From a virus, in IMG/VR virus record IMGVR_UViG_3300038469_000051, positions 1 to 24,794 of that record: a stretch of DNA of 24,794 nucleotides; one strand, 5' to 3'. Positions 1 to 21,246 of the stretch are shown in pieces. The notes under the pieces were generated by a model, which searched no databases, had not been told where the DNA came from, and saw nothing but the letters and a program-made list of their open reading frames with translations. The translations under genes and the position numbers were made by a program. The stretch's first letter is position 1. Each line of letters starts with the position of its first letter.

Positions 1-369
1 CTCGACCGCGTTCTCTCTTCCCGCTCTCAGGCCGCCGCAGTCACCGAGACGCAGCTCGCGGCGGAATCGGTGAAAGCCACCGAAGCCGAAGTCCTGCTCG
101 GGCTCAACCCGACGATCTCCGGCGGCGATCCCAAAGGCAGGGAGGCAATGAAGCGCTGGGATTCCGTTGGAGACAACCGCGTGCGTGAGGCGCATCTCGA
201 AGCCGATGGTCAAGAGGTTCCGGTAAGCCAGCCGTTCATTGTGGACGGGGAATCGCTTATGTACCCCGGCGACACCAGCCTCGGGGCTGGCCCTGGCAAT
301 GTAATCAACTGCCGGTGCTCGGCTTCCTACGACACCGAAGATATAGCCAATCAGCGATTGGAGGAGTAA
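1..369 (+). CDS. MuF-type head morphogenesis protein, C-terminal part
   Basis: The frame is open from base 1 to a TAA at 367-369, so the 5' end lies outside the window and 122 residues are visible. The visible part has the typical C-terminal pattern of phage Mu gpF-like (SPP1 gp7-like) minor head proteins: W-D-S-V-G-D-N-R-V-R-x-A-H, then F-x-V-x-G-E-x-L-M-Y-P-G-D, then N-V-I-N-C-R-C near the end. Family members sit inside the procapsid close to the portal and take part in head assembly or DNA ejection. A GTG at 70 is an internal codon rather than a start, because the conserved region continues upstream in frame. It lies 3 bp before the protease gene, the usual portal-MuF-protease order. It could also be the tail of a portal-MuF fusion, which cannot be judged here. 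Confidence 0.85.
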   Translation, partial: LDRVLSSRSQAAAVTETQLAAESVKATEAEVLLGLNPTISGGDPKGREAMKRWDSVGDNRVREAHLEADGQEVPVSQPFIVDGESLMYPGDTSLGAGPGNVINCRCSASYDTEDIANQRLEE

Positions 370-372
370 TTT

Positions 373-1494
373 ATGCCTGCCACCACCCCTTCCTGGATGT
401 ACGCCATGCAGAGAAAGCACGCCGAATTCCAGCAGATCGACGAATTCCTGGACGCGCCGCTTGAGATCAAGCAAATGTCGGAGGACGGCAGCTTCCAGGG
501 CTACGGCGCGGTCTTCGGCAATATGGACAGTGACCGAGACATCATCGCGTCCGGTGCATTCTCTAAGACGCTCGCGAAGAAAAAGCCGAGCCAAGTGAAA
601 ATGCTCTACCAGCATGACCATCGCCAGCCGATCGGAATCTGGGAGAACATCCAGGAGGACAAAAAAGGACTTCTGGTTCAAGGCAAGCTGTTGATCGGAC
701 AAGGCGTGCCGAAGGCGGACGAAGCCTATGCGCTCATCAAGGCCCGGGCAGTGGACGGCCTGAGTATCGGCTTCTCGATTCCGGAAGGCGGCGCGAGCTT
801 CGATCAGGAAAAGCGGGTGCGCACGATCAGCGAGATCGACCTGTGGGAGATTTCTCCGGTGACCTTCCCGGCCAACCCGCGCGCCAAGATCAGCCGGGTG
901 AAAGCCGTGGTGCCATTCCAGGATCTTCCGCTCTCCGATCGCGGCCGGGCCTGGGATGGATCAGCCGCCGAAGCGCGGGTGCGCCGCTGGGCCGGAGGCG
1001 GAGCCGATCTCACTGACATGGATTGGCAGCGCTATCGAAAGGCGTTCCTCTGGTTCGATTCGGACAACCAGGAGAATGTGACCAGCTACAAACTGGCTAT
1101 CGCTGACGTGATCGGCGGCGAGCTGACAGCAGTGCCGCGCGGAATTTTCGCATCGGCCGGAGTGCTGCTCGGCGCGCGCGGCGGGGTGGATATTCCCGAA
1201 GACGCCAAGCGCCGGATTATTTCTCACCTTGAGCGCTACTACGCCAAGATGGACATGGAGTCGCCGTTCAAGGCAATAGATATGGGCGATGCAATGAAGA
1301 ACGCTGTGCGCGCGATGCTCACAGCTTGCACCAATGTGCGAGAATTCGAACATACCCTGCGCGATGTGGGGTTCAGCAACAGCGAGGCCAAGATGATCGC
1401 CTCGCTGGCATTCAAACCTCAGCGTGAGGCTGTAGGCTCAATCGCGGAAGCCGTGAAGGCTGCCAAGAAAGTTTTGCAGCAACTCAACCCCTGA
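373..1494 (+). CDS. HK97-family prohead protease with C-terminal extension
   Basis: This 373-residue protein is a serine protease that matures the procapsid by cleaving capsid and scaffold. Residues about 30-180 form the S78 (HK97 gp4-like) protease domain. Likely catalytic residues are His81 in Y-Q-H-D-H-R-Q-P-I-G, Ser131 in D-G-L-S-I-G-F, and Glu159 before the conserved V-T-F-P-A. Residues about 185-300 carry a second domain (P-L-S-D-R-x-R-A-W-D-G...R-K-A-F-x-W-F-D...T-A-V-P-R-G-I-F-A) that I have seen attached to phage head proteins but whose role is unknown. The last 60 residues, including E-F-E-H-T-L-R-D-V-G-F-S, are another recurrent tail. The family norm is near 200 residues, so nearly half is extension; it may act as a scaffold delivered with the protease. 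The gene sits directly upstream of the capsid gene, as expected. Confidence 0.93.
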   Translation: MPATTPSWMYAMQRKHAEFQQIDEFLDAPLEIKQMSEDGSFQGYGAVFGNMDSDRDIIASGAFSKTLAKKKPSQVKMLYQHDHRQPIGIWENIQEDKKGLLVQGKLLIGQGVPKADEAYALIKARAVDGLSIGFSIPEGGASFDQEKRVRTISEIDLWEISPVTFPANPRAKISRVKAVVPFQDLPLSDRGRAWDGSAAEARVRRWAGGGADLTDMDWQRYRKAFLWFDSDNQENVTSYKLAIADVIGGELTAVPRGIFASAGVLLGARGGVDIPEDAKRRIISHLERYYAKMDMESPFKAIDMGDAMKNAVRAMLTACTNVREFEHTLRDVGFSNSEAKMIASLAFKPQREAVGSIAEAVKAAKKVLQQLNP

Positions 1495-1510: not shown

Positions 1511-3112
1511 ATGCCCTATCCGAACGAACACGCGTGCCGTCTGCGGAACCCGGATGATTTCCAGCCTGGCAGCTTCAGGCGAATGACTGGCGCGCAGGAG
1601 CATAACGGCAAGAAATACGATGTGATCGTGGGAAGGCTGAAGGGCCAGGATACGCTTACGCAGCAGGCGTACCGTTACCCGAAAACAGTCTGGCCGGCCC
1701 GCGAAGCACAAAGCCATTGCCGAGCACATGACGGATCGTTCGAAGCGGCAGCGAAGAGCCTCTGGCTCAACTCACACGAGGACCCGAAGATGGAAAACGA
1801 AGACGTTGGAAACGAGATCGCCGCCCTGGCGGAGAGCGTCAAAACGACGCATACGGAACTCAAGAAGTCGTTCGAAGAGTTCGCGAAGACCCAGCGCGAG
1901 GCCGCCGCGGAATTTATGAAGAAAGGCGAGGTCGATCCTCTGCTGGTGCAGCTCCGCGAGCGCATCGCGGCGGACATGCTTGCCATGCAGGAGAAGATGG
2001 ACGCCGCCATGGTCGCGCTGAACCGCCCGCGGCTCGACACCGACAGCTATTCCGAGAAGGACAAGGAATTCCGCAACGCGCACAAGTTCTTCACGCTCGT
2101 CGCGCACCGCAACCGCCGTCTCGATGCCGGCGATGAGCTTCCGGCGAAGGAAGTGAACATCGAGAACTACCGCGCCTACAAGCATGCGTTCATGCGCCTG
2201 CTCAGGAAAGCCGACGATCGCAAGATCAAGGTCGATGAGCTGAAGGCTCTCTCGGTCGGCTCCGATCCAGACGGCGGCTATACCGTCCATCCCGAGCTGA
2301 GCAACCGCATCATCGAGCGCCAGTTCGAATCCTCGCCGCTCCGGCAGGTCGCCATGATCGAGACCATCAGCAGCAATTCGCTGGAGCTGCTGGAGGACCC
2401 GGAAGAGTTCAGCGCCAACCGTACCAGCGAAGTCGCATCCGGCGGCGAGACCGCCACGCCCAAGCTGGGCAAGCGCGAGATCGTGGCCTACATCATGGAA
2501 GCCCGGCCGCGCGCCTCGCAGTCGCTTCTCGACGACTCCAGCCAGGACATCGAGGCATGGATCGCGAGGAAGGTGGCGAACAAGTTCGGCCGCATCGAAG
2601 CCAACGAGTTCATCGTCGGCAATGGCATCGGCAAAGCCCGCGGTATCACGACCTACACCGCTGGCACGACTTGGGGCACGATCGAGCAGCTGAACTCCGG
2701 CGCGAATGGCGGCGCGACCTACGCTGGGCTTGCGACCATTTCCACCTCGCTGAAGGAAATGTACTACGCCAACGCGCAATGGCTCCTGCATCGCACGCTG
2801 ATCGGCACGATCCTCGGCCTCACCGCCTCGGCCTCGCCGCTCTGGATTCCGTCGATCGCGGTCGGCCAGCCTTCGACCCTGCTCGGCTATCCGGTGCGCT
2901 TCGCTCAGGATTTCACCACGCCGGCGACCAACAGCCTGTCCGGCGCCTTCGGTGATTTCCGCGCGGGCTATACCTGGGTCGATCGCCTGGGCATCCGCGT
3001 GCAGCCTGACCCGTACACCGCCAAGCCCTTCGTGGAGTTCTATACCACCAAGCGCTCGGGCGGCGATGTCGTCGATTTCGACGCCATCAAAATCATCAAG
3101 CTAGCGGCCTAA
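1511..3112 (+). CDS. HK97-fold major capsid protein with extra N-terminal domain
   Basis: The full frame encodes 533 residues. From about residue 246 (S-V-G-S-D-P-D-G-G-Y-T-V-H-P-E) onward it is a typical HK97-fold capsid protein of about 288 residues, ending in a normal E-loop/P-domain region. Residues 94-180 are charged and helical, like the delta domain that acts as a built-in scaffold and is removed by the upstream protease. Residues 1-93 are unusual: a small domain (P-Y-P-N-E-H-A-C-R-L-R-N-P-D-D-F, later A-Y-R-Y-P-K) normally met as a separate or differently attached phage domain. An ATG at 1790 (residue 94) has a GAGG 8 bp upstream, while the ATG at 1511 has AAGGA about 4 bp upstream, so two products (533 and 440 residues) are possible. 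Which start is used for the bulk capsid is not known. Confidence 0.95.
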   Translation: MPYPNEHACRLRNPDDFQPGSFRRMTGAQEHNGKKYDVIVGRLKGQDTLTQQAYRYPKTVWPAREAQSHCRAHDGSFEAAAKSLWLNSHEDPKMENEDVGNEIAALAESVKTTHTELKKSFEEFAKTQREAAAEFMKKGEVDPLLVQLRERIAADMLAMQEKMDAAMVALNRPRLDTDSYSEKDKEFRNAHKFFTLVAHRNRRLDAGDELPAKEVNIENYRAYKHAFMRLLRKADDRKIKVDELKALSVGSDPDGGYTVHPELSNRIIERQFESSPLRQVAMIETISSNSLELLEDPEEFSANRTSEVASGGETATPKLGKREIVAYIMEARPRASQSLLDDSSQDIEAWIARKVANKFGRIEANEFIVGNGIGKARGITTYTAGTTWGTIEQLNSGANGGATYAGLATISTSLKEMYYANAQWLLHRTLIGTILGLTASASPLWIPSIAVGQPSTLLGYPVRFAQDFTTPATNSLSGAFGDFRAGYTWVDRLGIRVQPDPYTAKPFVEFYTTKRSGGDVVDFDAIKIIKLAA

Positions 3113-3177: not shown

Positions 3178-3597
3178 ATGCGTGACCTTCACGACAATAT
3201 CAACCCCATCAATCCCGATGTGGTGACGGTGACCGATACCACTCCGGTGGTCTCCGGCATCGTCGACATGCAGGGCTACGACGCACTCGAGTTTGTGATT
3301 GCGACCGGAACCTTGGCCGATGCCGATGCGACCTTCACCGTGCTGGTGGAGGATGGCGATGCGTCGAACCTTTCCGATGCGGCGGCGGTGGCCGATACCT
3401 ACCTGCTCGGCACGGAGGTTCTGGCGGCCTTCACCTTCGCGGAAGACCAGAAGACGCGGAAGATCGGCTACATCGGCCAGAAGCGCTACGCCCGCTGCAC
3501 CGTGACGCCGGTGGCGAATACCGGCAGCGCGCCGATCGCTATCGTTCCGATTCTGGGCCGGCCGAAGGATGCTGCAACGCCGAACCCGCCCGCCTGA
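3178..3597 (+). CDS. Conserved phage protein, possible capsid decoration protein
   Basis: The product has 139 residues and begins M-R-D-L-H-D-N-I-N-P, with a strong GGAGG about 9 bp upstream. It is rich in Thr, Val, Ala and Asp, has no membrane segment, and looks all-beta (alternating V-x-V and T-F-T-V-L-V stretches; R-Y-A-R-C-T-V-T-P-V). The pattern is familiar from hypothetical proteins found just after capsid genes in other phages. Its place between the capsid protein and the connector genes is where decoration or capsid-stabilising proteins usually lie, and the strong ribosome site and flanking hairpins fit a highly expressed virion protein. No enzymatic motif is seen. The decoration role is inferred from position and composition only. 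Confidence 0.8.
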   Translation: MRDLHDNINPINPDVVTVTDTTPVVSGIVDMQGYDALEFVIATGTLADADATFTVLVEDGDASNLSDAAAVADTYLLGTEVLAAFTFAEDQKTRKIGYIGQKRYARCTVTPVANTGSAPIAIVPILGRPKDAATPNPPA

Positions 3598-20186: not shown

Positions 20187-20474
20187 CTATGCCTTCCCGG
20201 AGCGCTCGTGCTCGGGCGCCAGCTGAGGCCCGCCCCATGTCGGCCGAGCGCCGGTCTCCGATTCGATCGCCTCGGTGATGATATCGCGCATCATGTCCAT
20301 GAACAGGTCCTTTCTTCCCGGGTTGCTTTCCACCGCTCGCATGAGAATCGAGCCTATGACTACCGCTCGATCCATGGTCTCGTTCTGCGCGTAGTAGGCC
20401 ACCCACATCTCGCCTTCGCGCCGCATTGCCAGCCGGCCGATCTGCGGGCCTTTGTCGATATTCTCTTCAGCCAT
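20187..20474 (-). CDS. Conserved phage hypothetical protein
   Basis: The 95-residue product starts 8 bp inside the end of the nucleotidyltransferase gene. It is an acidic, mixed alpha/beta protein with recurring phage patterns I-G-R-L-A-M-R-R-E-G, W-V-A-Y-Y-A and R-K-D-L-F-M-D-M-M-R-D-I-I, and a tail with P-T-W-G-G-P-Q-L-A-P-E-H-E-R. I recall similar hypothetical proteins in proteobacterial phages, but no function is established. Its gene coupling to the nucleotidyltransferase suggests joint expression. No membrane segment, signal or catalytic motif is visible. Confidence 0.82.
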   Translation of the reverse strand: MAEENIDKGPQIGRLAMRREGEMWVAYYAQNETMDRAVVIGSILMRAVESNPGRKDLFMDMMRDIITEAIESETGARPTWGGPQLAPEHERSGKA

Positions 20475-21246
20475 CTATCTTTCCCTCTTGAACAATTTCA
20501 ATCGAAGTCGCTGCTGACGAACTTTCGTCATTGAACATAACCGGCTCTATGCCATCGATGATTGACAATGGGTCTACTTCCAGCAAGAGCGAGAGAATTA
20601 TCAGCATCGTCTTCTGCTCGTCCAAGCGCGCCGCGTCGTCCTGGTGTACGACCATGCCGTCATCGATCCGAATGCCGGTCAGAAGTCGCGCCACAACTCC
20701 TGCAAGCGCTGGAGCCTGAATGTTGTAGCCGCGTCCGAGATACTTCAGCACTCGCATAATGGAGCCTCCCGCGTCTTCGTGCCGGTGCGGAGCTGTATAG
20801 ACCAGCCGGCGAGCTGCGAGATCGGAGTAGAAGCTGTCCGCACATAGAGATCTCCATTCTCCGGTTACTGTCTCTGAGTCTCCCGGCACCCACCAGATCA
20901 CCGCCTGCACAATGGTAAAGTCGAATTGTTCGACCAGTTTCTTCGGATCGTCATAGAGCCAGCGGGTTATGAATTGAACCGGAGTCCTTGGCGGAGCGAG
21001 AACCGTAAGCGCGTTGTCGGTTTGATGAACTCTTCCGTTTCGGTTGGTAGCAAGTTCAAGAGCGATGGCCTCCAGCTGGCGTTCGTCGGCTCCGAGCAGA
21101 TCGATGTCAGCCGGAGTTTCGCCAGCAATGCACGCGCGTATGAATCCTCCCGCCAGGAACACCCGTCTGCTCTTCAGCAGCTCTACAACGTCTTTCGGAA
21201 TGCGCGAGGTAATGAAGTGTTGGTCTACCGCGGTCAGCTTGTTCAT
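20467..21246 (-). CDS. Nucleotidyltransferase (Pol-beta fold, poly(A)/CCA-like head)
   Basis: The product has 259 residues. It carries the nucleotidyltransferase signature: G33-G34 and Arg37 in L-A-G-G-F-I-R-A-C-I, then A-D-I-D-L with acidic residues Asp47 and Asp49, and a third candidate acid Asp109 in F-D-F-T-I. The later segment (L-A-A-R-R-L-V-Y-T, then S-I-M-R-V-L-K-Y-L-G-R-G-Y near 163-174) is like the region after the catalytic head in poly(A) polymerase/CCA-adding enzymes. A dedicated RNA-binding tail is not recognised, so the substrate may be tRNA, other RNA, or a protein. Similar proteins of unknown role occur in other phages. ATGA overlap with the preceding gene (21243-21581). Confidence 0.85.
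   Translation of the reverse strand: MNKLTAVDQHFITSRIPKDVVELLKSRRVFLAGGFIRACIAGETPADIDLLGADERQLEAIALELATNRNGRVHQTDNALTVLAPPRTPVQFITRWLYDDPKKLVEQFDFTIVQAVIWWVPGDSETVTGEWRSLCADSFYSDLAARRLVYTAPHRHEDAGGSIMRVLKYLGRGYNIQAPALAGVVARLLTGIRIDDGMVVHQDDAARLDEQKTMLIILSLLLEVDPLSIIDGIEPVMFNDESSSAATSIEIVQEGKIDG

Follow-up and report, generated by a model that had tools for sequence, protein, structure and literature searches.

A capsid frame with an additional domain at its N terminus

The window, by which we mean the whole stretch of DNA analysed, is a virus record of 24,794 bases with its head module at the left end. Directly after the gene for a head maturation protease lies a single frame that opens with a small domain, here called DOM, and continues into a major capsid protein. 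The features of the head module are as follows.

1..369, plus strand: Mu-F-like head morphogenesis protein, C-terminal part, cut by the window edge (PF04233, E 4.2e-8; phrog_2468)
373..1494, plus strand: S78 head maturation protease, 373 aa, without a DOM copy (PF04586, 5.7e-34; TIGR01543)
1511..1756, plus strand: DOM, residues 1-82, a putatively BRX-like beta-beta-beta-alpha core after a PYPNEHACR strand (AF2 model, homologues, codon constraint)
1757..1789, plus strand: linker, residues 83-93, unconserved, containing the Shine-Dalgarno sequence GAGGAC of the putative internal start (sequence comparison)
1790..3112, plus strand: ordinary delta-domain and HK97-fold major capsid protein, probably made from the internal ATG 1790 (PF05065, TIGR01554; start as in the relative L006)
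3178..3597, plus strand: phrog_5707 gene of the head module, downstream of the capsid (PHROGs; homologues follow the capsid in the relatives L004 and L006)

Past the phrog_5707 gene come the sheath, tape measure and baseplate genes of a contractile-tail module. Elsewhere in the window, positions 20467-21246 on the minus strand match phrog_4400 and, weakly, the nucleotidyltransferase family phrog_1614.

The frame 1511-3112 is open and encodes 533 aa, with one ATG at 1511 and another, in frame as residue 94, at 1790. As the preliminary description of this DNA had proposed, it runs on into a normal delta-domain/HK97 capsid protein at 1790: Pfam Phage_capsid covers residues 255-530 (8.5e-60; 202.9 bits against a cut-off of 24.2) and NCBIfam major_cap_HK97 covers residues 111-530 (7e-81; 272.3 bits against a cut-off of 27.5). 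That description had also counted an extra domain of 93 residues. A domain is present, but its compact part ends at about residue 82, and the remaining 11 residues (83-93) form an unconserved linker. Residues 1-93 matched no family when searched alone against Pfam and PHROGs, and no NCBIfam match fell within them in the full-protein search.

Selection on DOM was assessed from codon-position counts in place of dN/dS because dS is saturated. Between the window and its nearest relative, the 80 core codons show 27, 21 and 56 mismatches at positions 1, 2 and 3 (p = 4e-5), a pattern indicating that DOM is translated and constrained at the protein level. At the level of sequence, we regard the in-frame fusion of an extra domain to the capsid as confirmed, and as common to the window and one relative. 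A short direct repeat flanking DOM, CAACTCA, was considered as an insertion scar and rejected, since equally good repeats occur in 14% of random pairs.

DOM is widespread in phage head modules

With a DOM profile, relatives turned up in over 500 viral contig stretches and 22 bacterial/archaeal genome loci, and other seeds added more; plasmids gave no match. The window copy carries the motif PYP[NS]EHA[CA]R and the conserved core residues R55, A66, F77 and A80, and across 94 copies the invariant columns are P2, Y3, P4, E6, H7, A8, R10, P14, R55, A66, F77 and A80.

We assigned the context of 217 distinct copies with local profiles. DOM is joined to an S78 protease in 96 (S78 then DOM in 72, DOM then S78 in 24), stands at the front of DOM-S78-capsid polyproteins in 48, and is found with ClpP/S49-like proteases in 22, with the XkdF type in nine (five of which also match the local S78 profile), with portals in two (both confirmed by Pfam) and with a capsid alone in one, the window (L004 enters the count by way of its twin L056, which a contig end cuts), while 39 copies have no assigned partner or are cut by contig ends; because the copies are motif-seeded samples, these counts show the range of contexts and not natural frequencies. 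For 82 DOM members a scan with Pfam gives the same picture (S78, 38; CLP_protease, 10; S78_2, eight; S49, three; Mu-like_Pro, three). Only one DOM copy per contig was found in each of 25 long contigs (25/25). Among the copies found, the window and L004, together with L056, are the sole cases of a capsid directly after DOM with no protease between. One phage, L033, has DOM at the C terminus of its portal (minus strand, 1498-3171 of L229, which is the same contig; Pfam). Its protease and capsid are without DOM, and that capsid is related to the capsid of the window.

Judged by these profiles and motifs, DOM is a widespread, unnamed head-module domain, normally carried on maturation proteases and sometimes on portals. 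Pfam, PHROGs and NCBIfam lack a dedicated family for it, and none of the papers searched mentions the motif YPNEHA.

Three other arrangements were seen. A single 838-aa ORF combines portal, DOM and a Mu-F-like domain (L091, 2067-4580). One DOM-protease-capsid polyprotein (L260, 3126-5780) also has a Hva1_TUDOR match at residues 218-264. Six Anaerolineaceae-type genomes (L135-L140; Thermanaerothrix, Bellilinea, Levilinea, Anaerolinea and relatives) share a DOM-XkdF-type protein in an ORF of about 465-490 aa, perhaps part of a conserved prophage or of a domesticated head-gene cluster.

The predicted fold weakly resembles a BRX domain

The AlphaFold (AF2) model of DOM has a pLDDT of about 95 over most of residues 2-80. 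It consists of a short strand, three long strands (23-31, 34-43 and 49-57) and a helix (63-72). Foldseek searches with the model gave nothing under E 0.001 in the PDB, where BRX was not among the top matches, and three matches under 0.001 in BFVD, one of them named prohead protease. A search by sequence for homologues of solved structure gave none that was convincing.

With VIA-align, the best structural match was the BRX domain of RLD2 (6l0v_E). The match is weak, with a Z of 4.5 over 51 residues, a value that common arrangements reach. The Pfam BRX family (PF08381) independently matches 10 of 94 DOM copies in the same region as the structural match. The copy in L146 scores 30.3 bits and is the one copy above the cut-off of 24.5; seven others score 15-22 bits, below the cut-off, in the same region. 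Residues 1-93 of the window protein have no PF08381 match at E up to 1. The BRX domain of the plant protein RLD2, a beta-beta-beta-alpha-alpha module, takes up a partner hairpin between its third strand and first helix with an affinity of about 10 nM (PMC6941992). Taken with this hairpin binding, the structural match and the independent Pfam matches suggest that DOM is a BRX-like docking fold.

Close relatives share the fusion

Few close relatives are available for comparison, namely the window, L004 and L006. At 75% identity L004 is the nearest, and it retains DOM, the internal start and a linker free of stops. L056 is 99.7% identical to L004, has the same layout and is cut by a contig end. 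L006 is 69% identical to the window, and DOM is found nowhere in its 8.2-kb contig. The preliminary description had asked whether relatives carry a stop codon before 1790; the closest one has none, which leaves that reading unrefuted.

In a tree of 42 capsids, the window, L004/L005 and L006 form one clade (support 100), with L006, which lacks DOM, outside the window and L004 (98). DOM may have been gained on the window/L004 branch or lost in L006, two histories that three lineages do not distinguish. Since 25 of 27 records of this capsid's relatives have no detectable DOM (many of the records being fragments), DOM is optional for this capsid family.

The linker differs in length by one codon between the window and L004, and the frame is open in both. 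The chance that an 11-codon linker is free of stops is about 0.71, or about 0.24 when multiplied by 1/3 for keeping the frame, a value at which chance could account for the open frame without selection for the fusion itself. This leaves room for a neutral or leader-like fusion, in which the DOM gene came in between protease and capsid without a stop and either works free, in trans, or is tolerated because nearly all capsid is made from ATG 1790. Loss of a stop between two genes, which the preliminary description had offered as its alternative, would likewise fit phages such as L213, whose protease and capsid genes flank a separate DOM gene that has a strong Shine-Dalgarno site and its own stop. 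The unconserved linker and the conserved Shine-Dalgarno sequence of the internal start agree with a neutral fusion. However, the frame has stayed open in both phages despite the change in linker length and strongly diverged third positions, and in most phages DOM is joined to other procapsid proteins. We consider a neutral fusion the main rival of the docking reading given below, and somewhat less likely than it.

Two starts in one frame

Ribosome sites had been proposed at both ATG codons, and each does pair moderately with the anti-SD (-5.6 kcal/mol for 1511, -5.9 for 1790). Stronger sites in the window reach -9 to -11. Several other in-frame ATG or GTG codons score equal to 1790, so the pairing score alone proves nothing for that codon, and it is homology that backs it. 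The capsid of L006, which is without DOM, begins at an ATG matching 1790 behind the same Shine-Dalgarno sequence, GAGGAC; the capsid leaders of L006 and the window are identical at 21 of 27 bases, CACGAGGACC included, and GAGGAC before the capsid ATG is kept in L004 too. Most simply, then, 1790 is the ancestral capsid start, and the ordinary capsid is probably made from it. A literature search for known internal starts in capsid genes found nothing relevant.

Opening energies favour the internal start, which is the more accessible site both in the window (4.95, against 7.11 upstream) and in L004 (7.25, against 16.7 upstream, where the only candidate is a CTG). Like the preliminary description, we infer that the long form from ATG 1511 is a minor product. 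As far as sequence can tell, the idea of two starts is well supported. The CTG of L004 (2990-3003) has a good Shine-Dalgarno site (-8.5) eight bases past the protease stop and is a candidate weak reinitiation site.

If instead all capsid were the 533-aa form from ATG 1511, DOM would be an enlarged delta or scaffold present at 1:1 and the internal ATG a relic. ATG 1511 does have a usable Shine-Dalgarno site, 16 bases past the protease stop, and DOM heads the capsid polyproteins of other phages. Such a scheme is doubtful given that the DOM frame of L004 has no ATG, GTG or TTG start, and that the internal Shine-Dalgarno sequence is kept in the window, L004 and L006 at the more accessible site.

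A +1 ribosomal frameshift at CCC-TGA (1489-1494) could in principle join the protease to DOM-capsid as a polyprotein, as DOM is read in the +1 frame relative to the protease, a frame that stays open upstream past CCC TGA, and protease-capsid polyproteins with DOM are common. We judge this very improbable: DOM in the window has a normal ATG with a Shine-Dalgarno site, and in L004 the shift would have to be -1, with no site of this kind present. The difference in frame offset between the two phages rules out a conserved frameshift from the protease.

Least credible is an assembly artefact, a sequencing frameshift that broke up a protease-DOM-capsid frame or ran two genes together; the record does come from an assembly collection and S78-DOM is a single ORF in many phages, but L004 and L056 (fused protein 75% identical) share the arrangement of the window at another frame offset, with no indel separating the two.

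A proposed role in head assembly

To our knowledge, little is understood, for most HK97-type phages, of how the maturation protease enters the procapsid. One small domain common to several protease families, to portals and, here, to a capsid points to a shared docking interaction, and DOM probably helps to gather the parts of the immature head.

Our preferred reading, to which we give a probability of about 0.45, is that DOM is a mobile docking domain and that two products are made here from one frame. DOM would be present in one copy per phage, riding on whichever inner component of the procapsid (protease, portal or capsid) each lineage has settled on. In the window it precedes the delta domain, joined in frame to its N terminus. 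Ribosomes reaching ATG 1511 soon past the protease stop would make a minor DOM-delta-capsid form, and the ancestral ATG 1790 would supply the bulk capsid. The long form would co-assemble with the capsid, placing DOM inside the procapsid, where it would dock the maturation protease or the portal. A capsid-borne DOM that docks one of these is the simplest proposal, since DOM elsewhere sits on them and the protease here is without it. At maturation DOM would leave together with the delta domain.

The location is argued by analogy. The HK97 capsid protein carries its scaffold as an N-terminal domain (PMC10275583), and for phage phi12 cleavage removes delta from the capsid protein and from its satellite homologue Ccm alike (PMC8569155). 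Because DOM precedes delta, the same geometry would put it inside the procapsid and remove it on maturation. The ratio of the two products, the docking role with its partner, and the loss with delta are what we infer for this phage.

The longer form had been suggested to act as a built-in scaffold or adaptor. We favour docking over a scaffold made by DOM itself, because delta, downstream of it, already serves as scaffold and because DOM is normally found on proteases and sometimes on portals. More tentatively, BRX-like DOM may be a common currency of the procapsid among tailed phages, with a single copy in each, swapped among proteases of several families, portal and capsid, and carried here by a minority of the capsid through the weaker upstream start so as to recruit the protease.

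The analysis adds that the piece ahead of the capsid belongs to a widespread, unnamed and probably BRX-like head-assembly domain; its mechanism is a hypothesis. Through DOM, the recruitment of the protease into the procapsid becomes a testable question.

Comparison with known systems

The BRX domain (PF08381) of the plant BREVIS RADIX and RLD proteins has a beta-beta-beta-alpha arrangement that DOM, as modelled, putatively shares, and the L146 copy exceeds the Pfam cut-off. In contrast to plant BRX, DOM carries an additional PYPNEHACR segment towards its N terminus and belongs to a phage head protein.

The capsid itself is of the HK97 type with an N-terminal delta. The mature fold matches PF05065/TIGR01554, a coiled-coil-like delta region lies before it, and the S78 protease gene is directly upstream; removal of delta by that protease is predicted here. 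In HK97, delta is the N terminus itself, whereas here a separate folded domain precedes delta, with the ordinary start internal to the gene.

In prohead protease/major capsid fusions (NCBIfam NF045541-like; Synechococcus phage S-CBS1 and Roseobacter phage CRP-831) the same DOM stands ahead of the capsid in one ORF. There the protease lies between DOM and capsid, whereas in the window the protease has its own gene and DOM is joined directly to delta.

The C and Nu3 genes of phage lambda are nested, the long form being a protease and the short form the scaffold, read in one frame with an internal start. The window would likewise yield two head proteins by internal start, the longer with an extra functional domain at its N terminus, the second product being predicted from sequence. 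Unlike C and Nu3, the long form here would be DOM-capsid and the short form the capsid.
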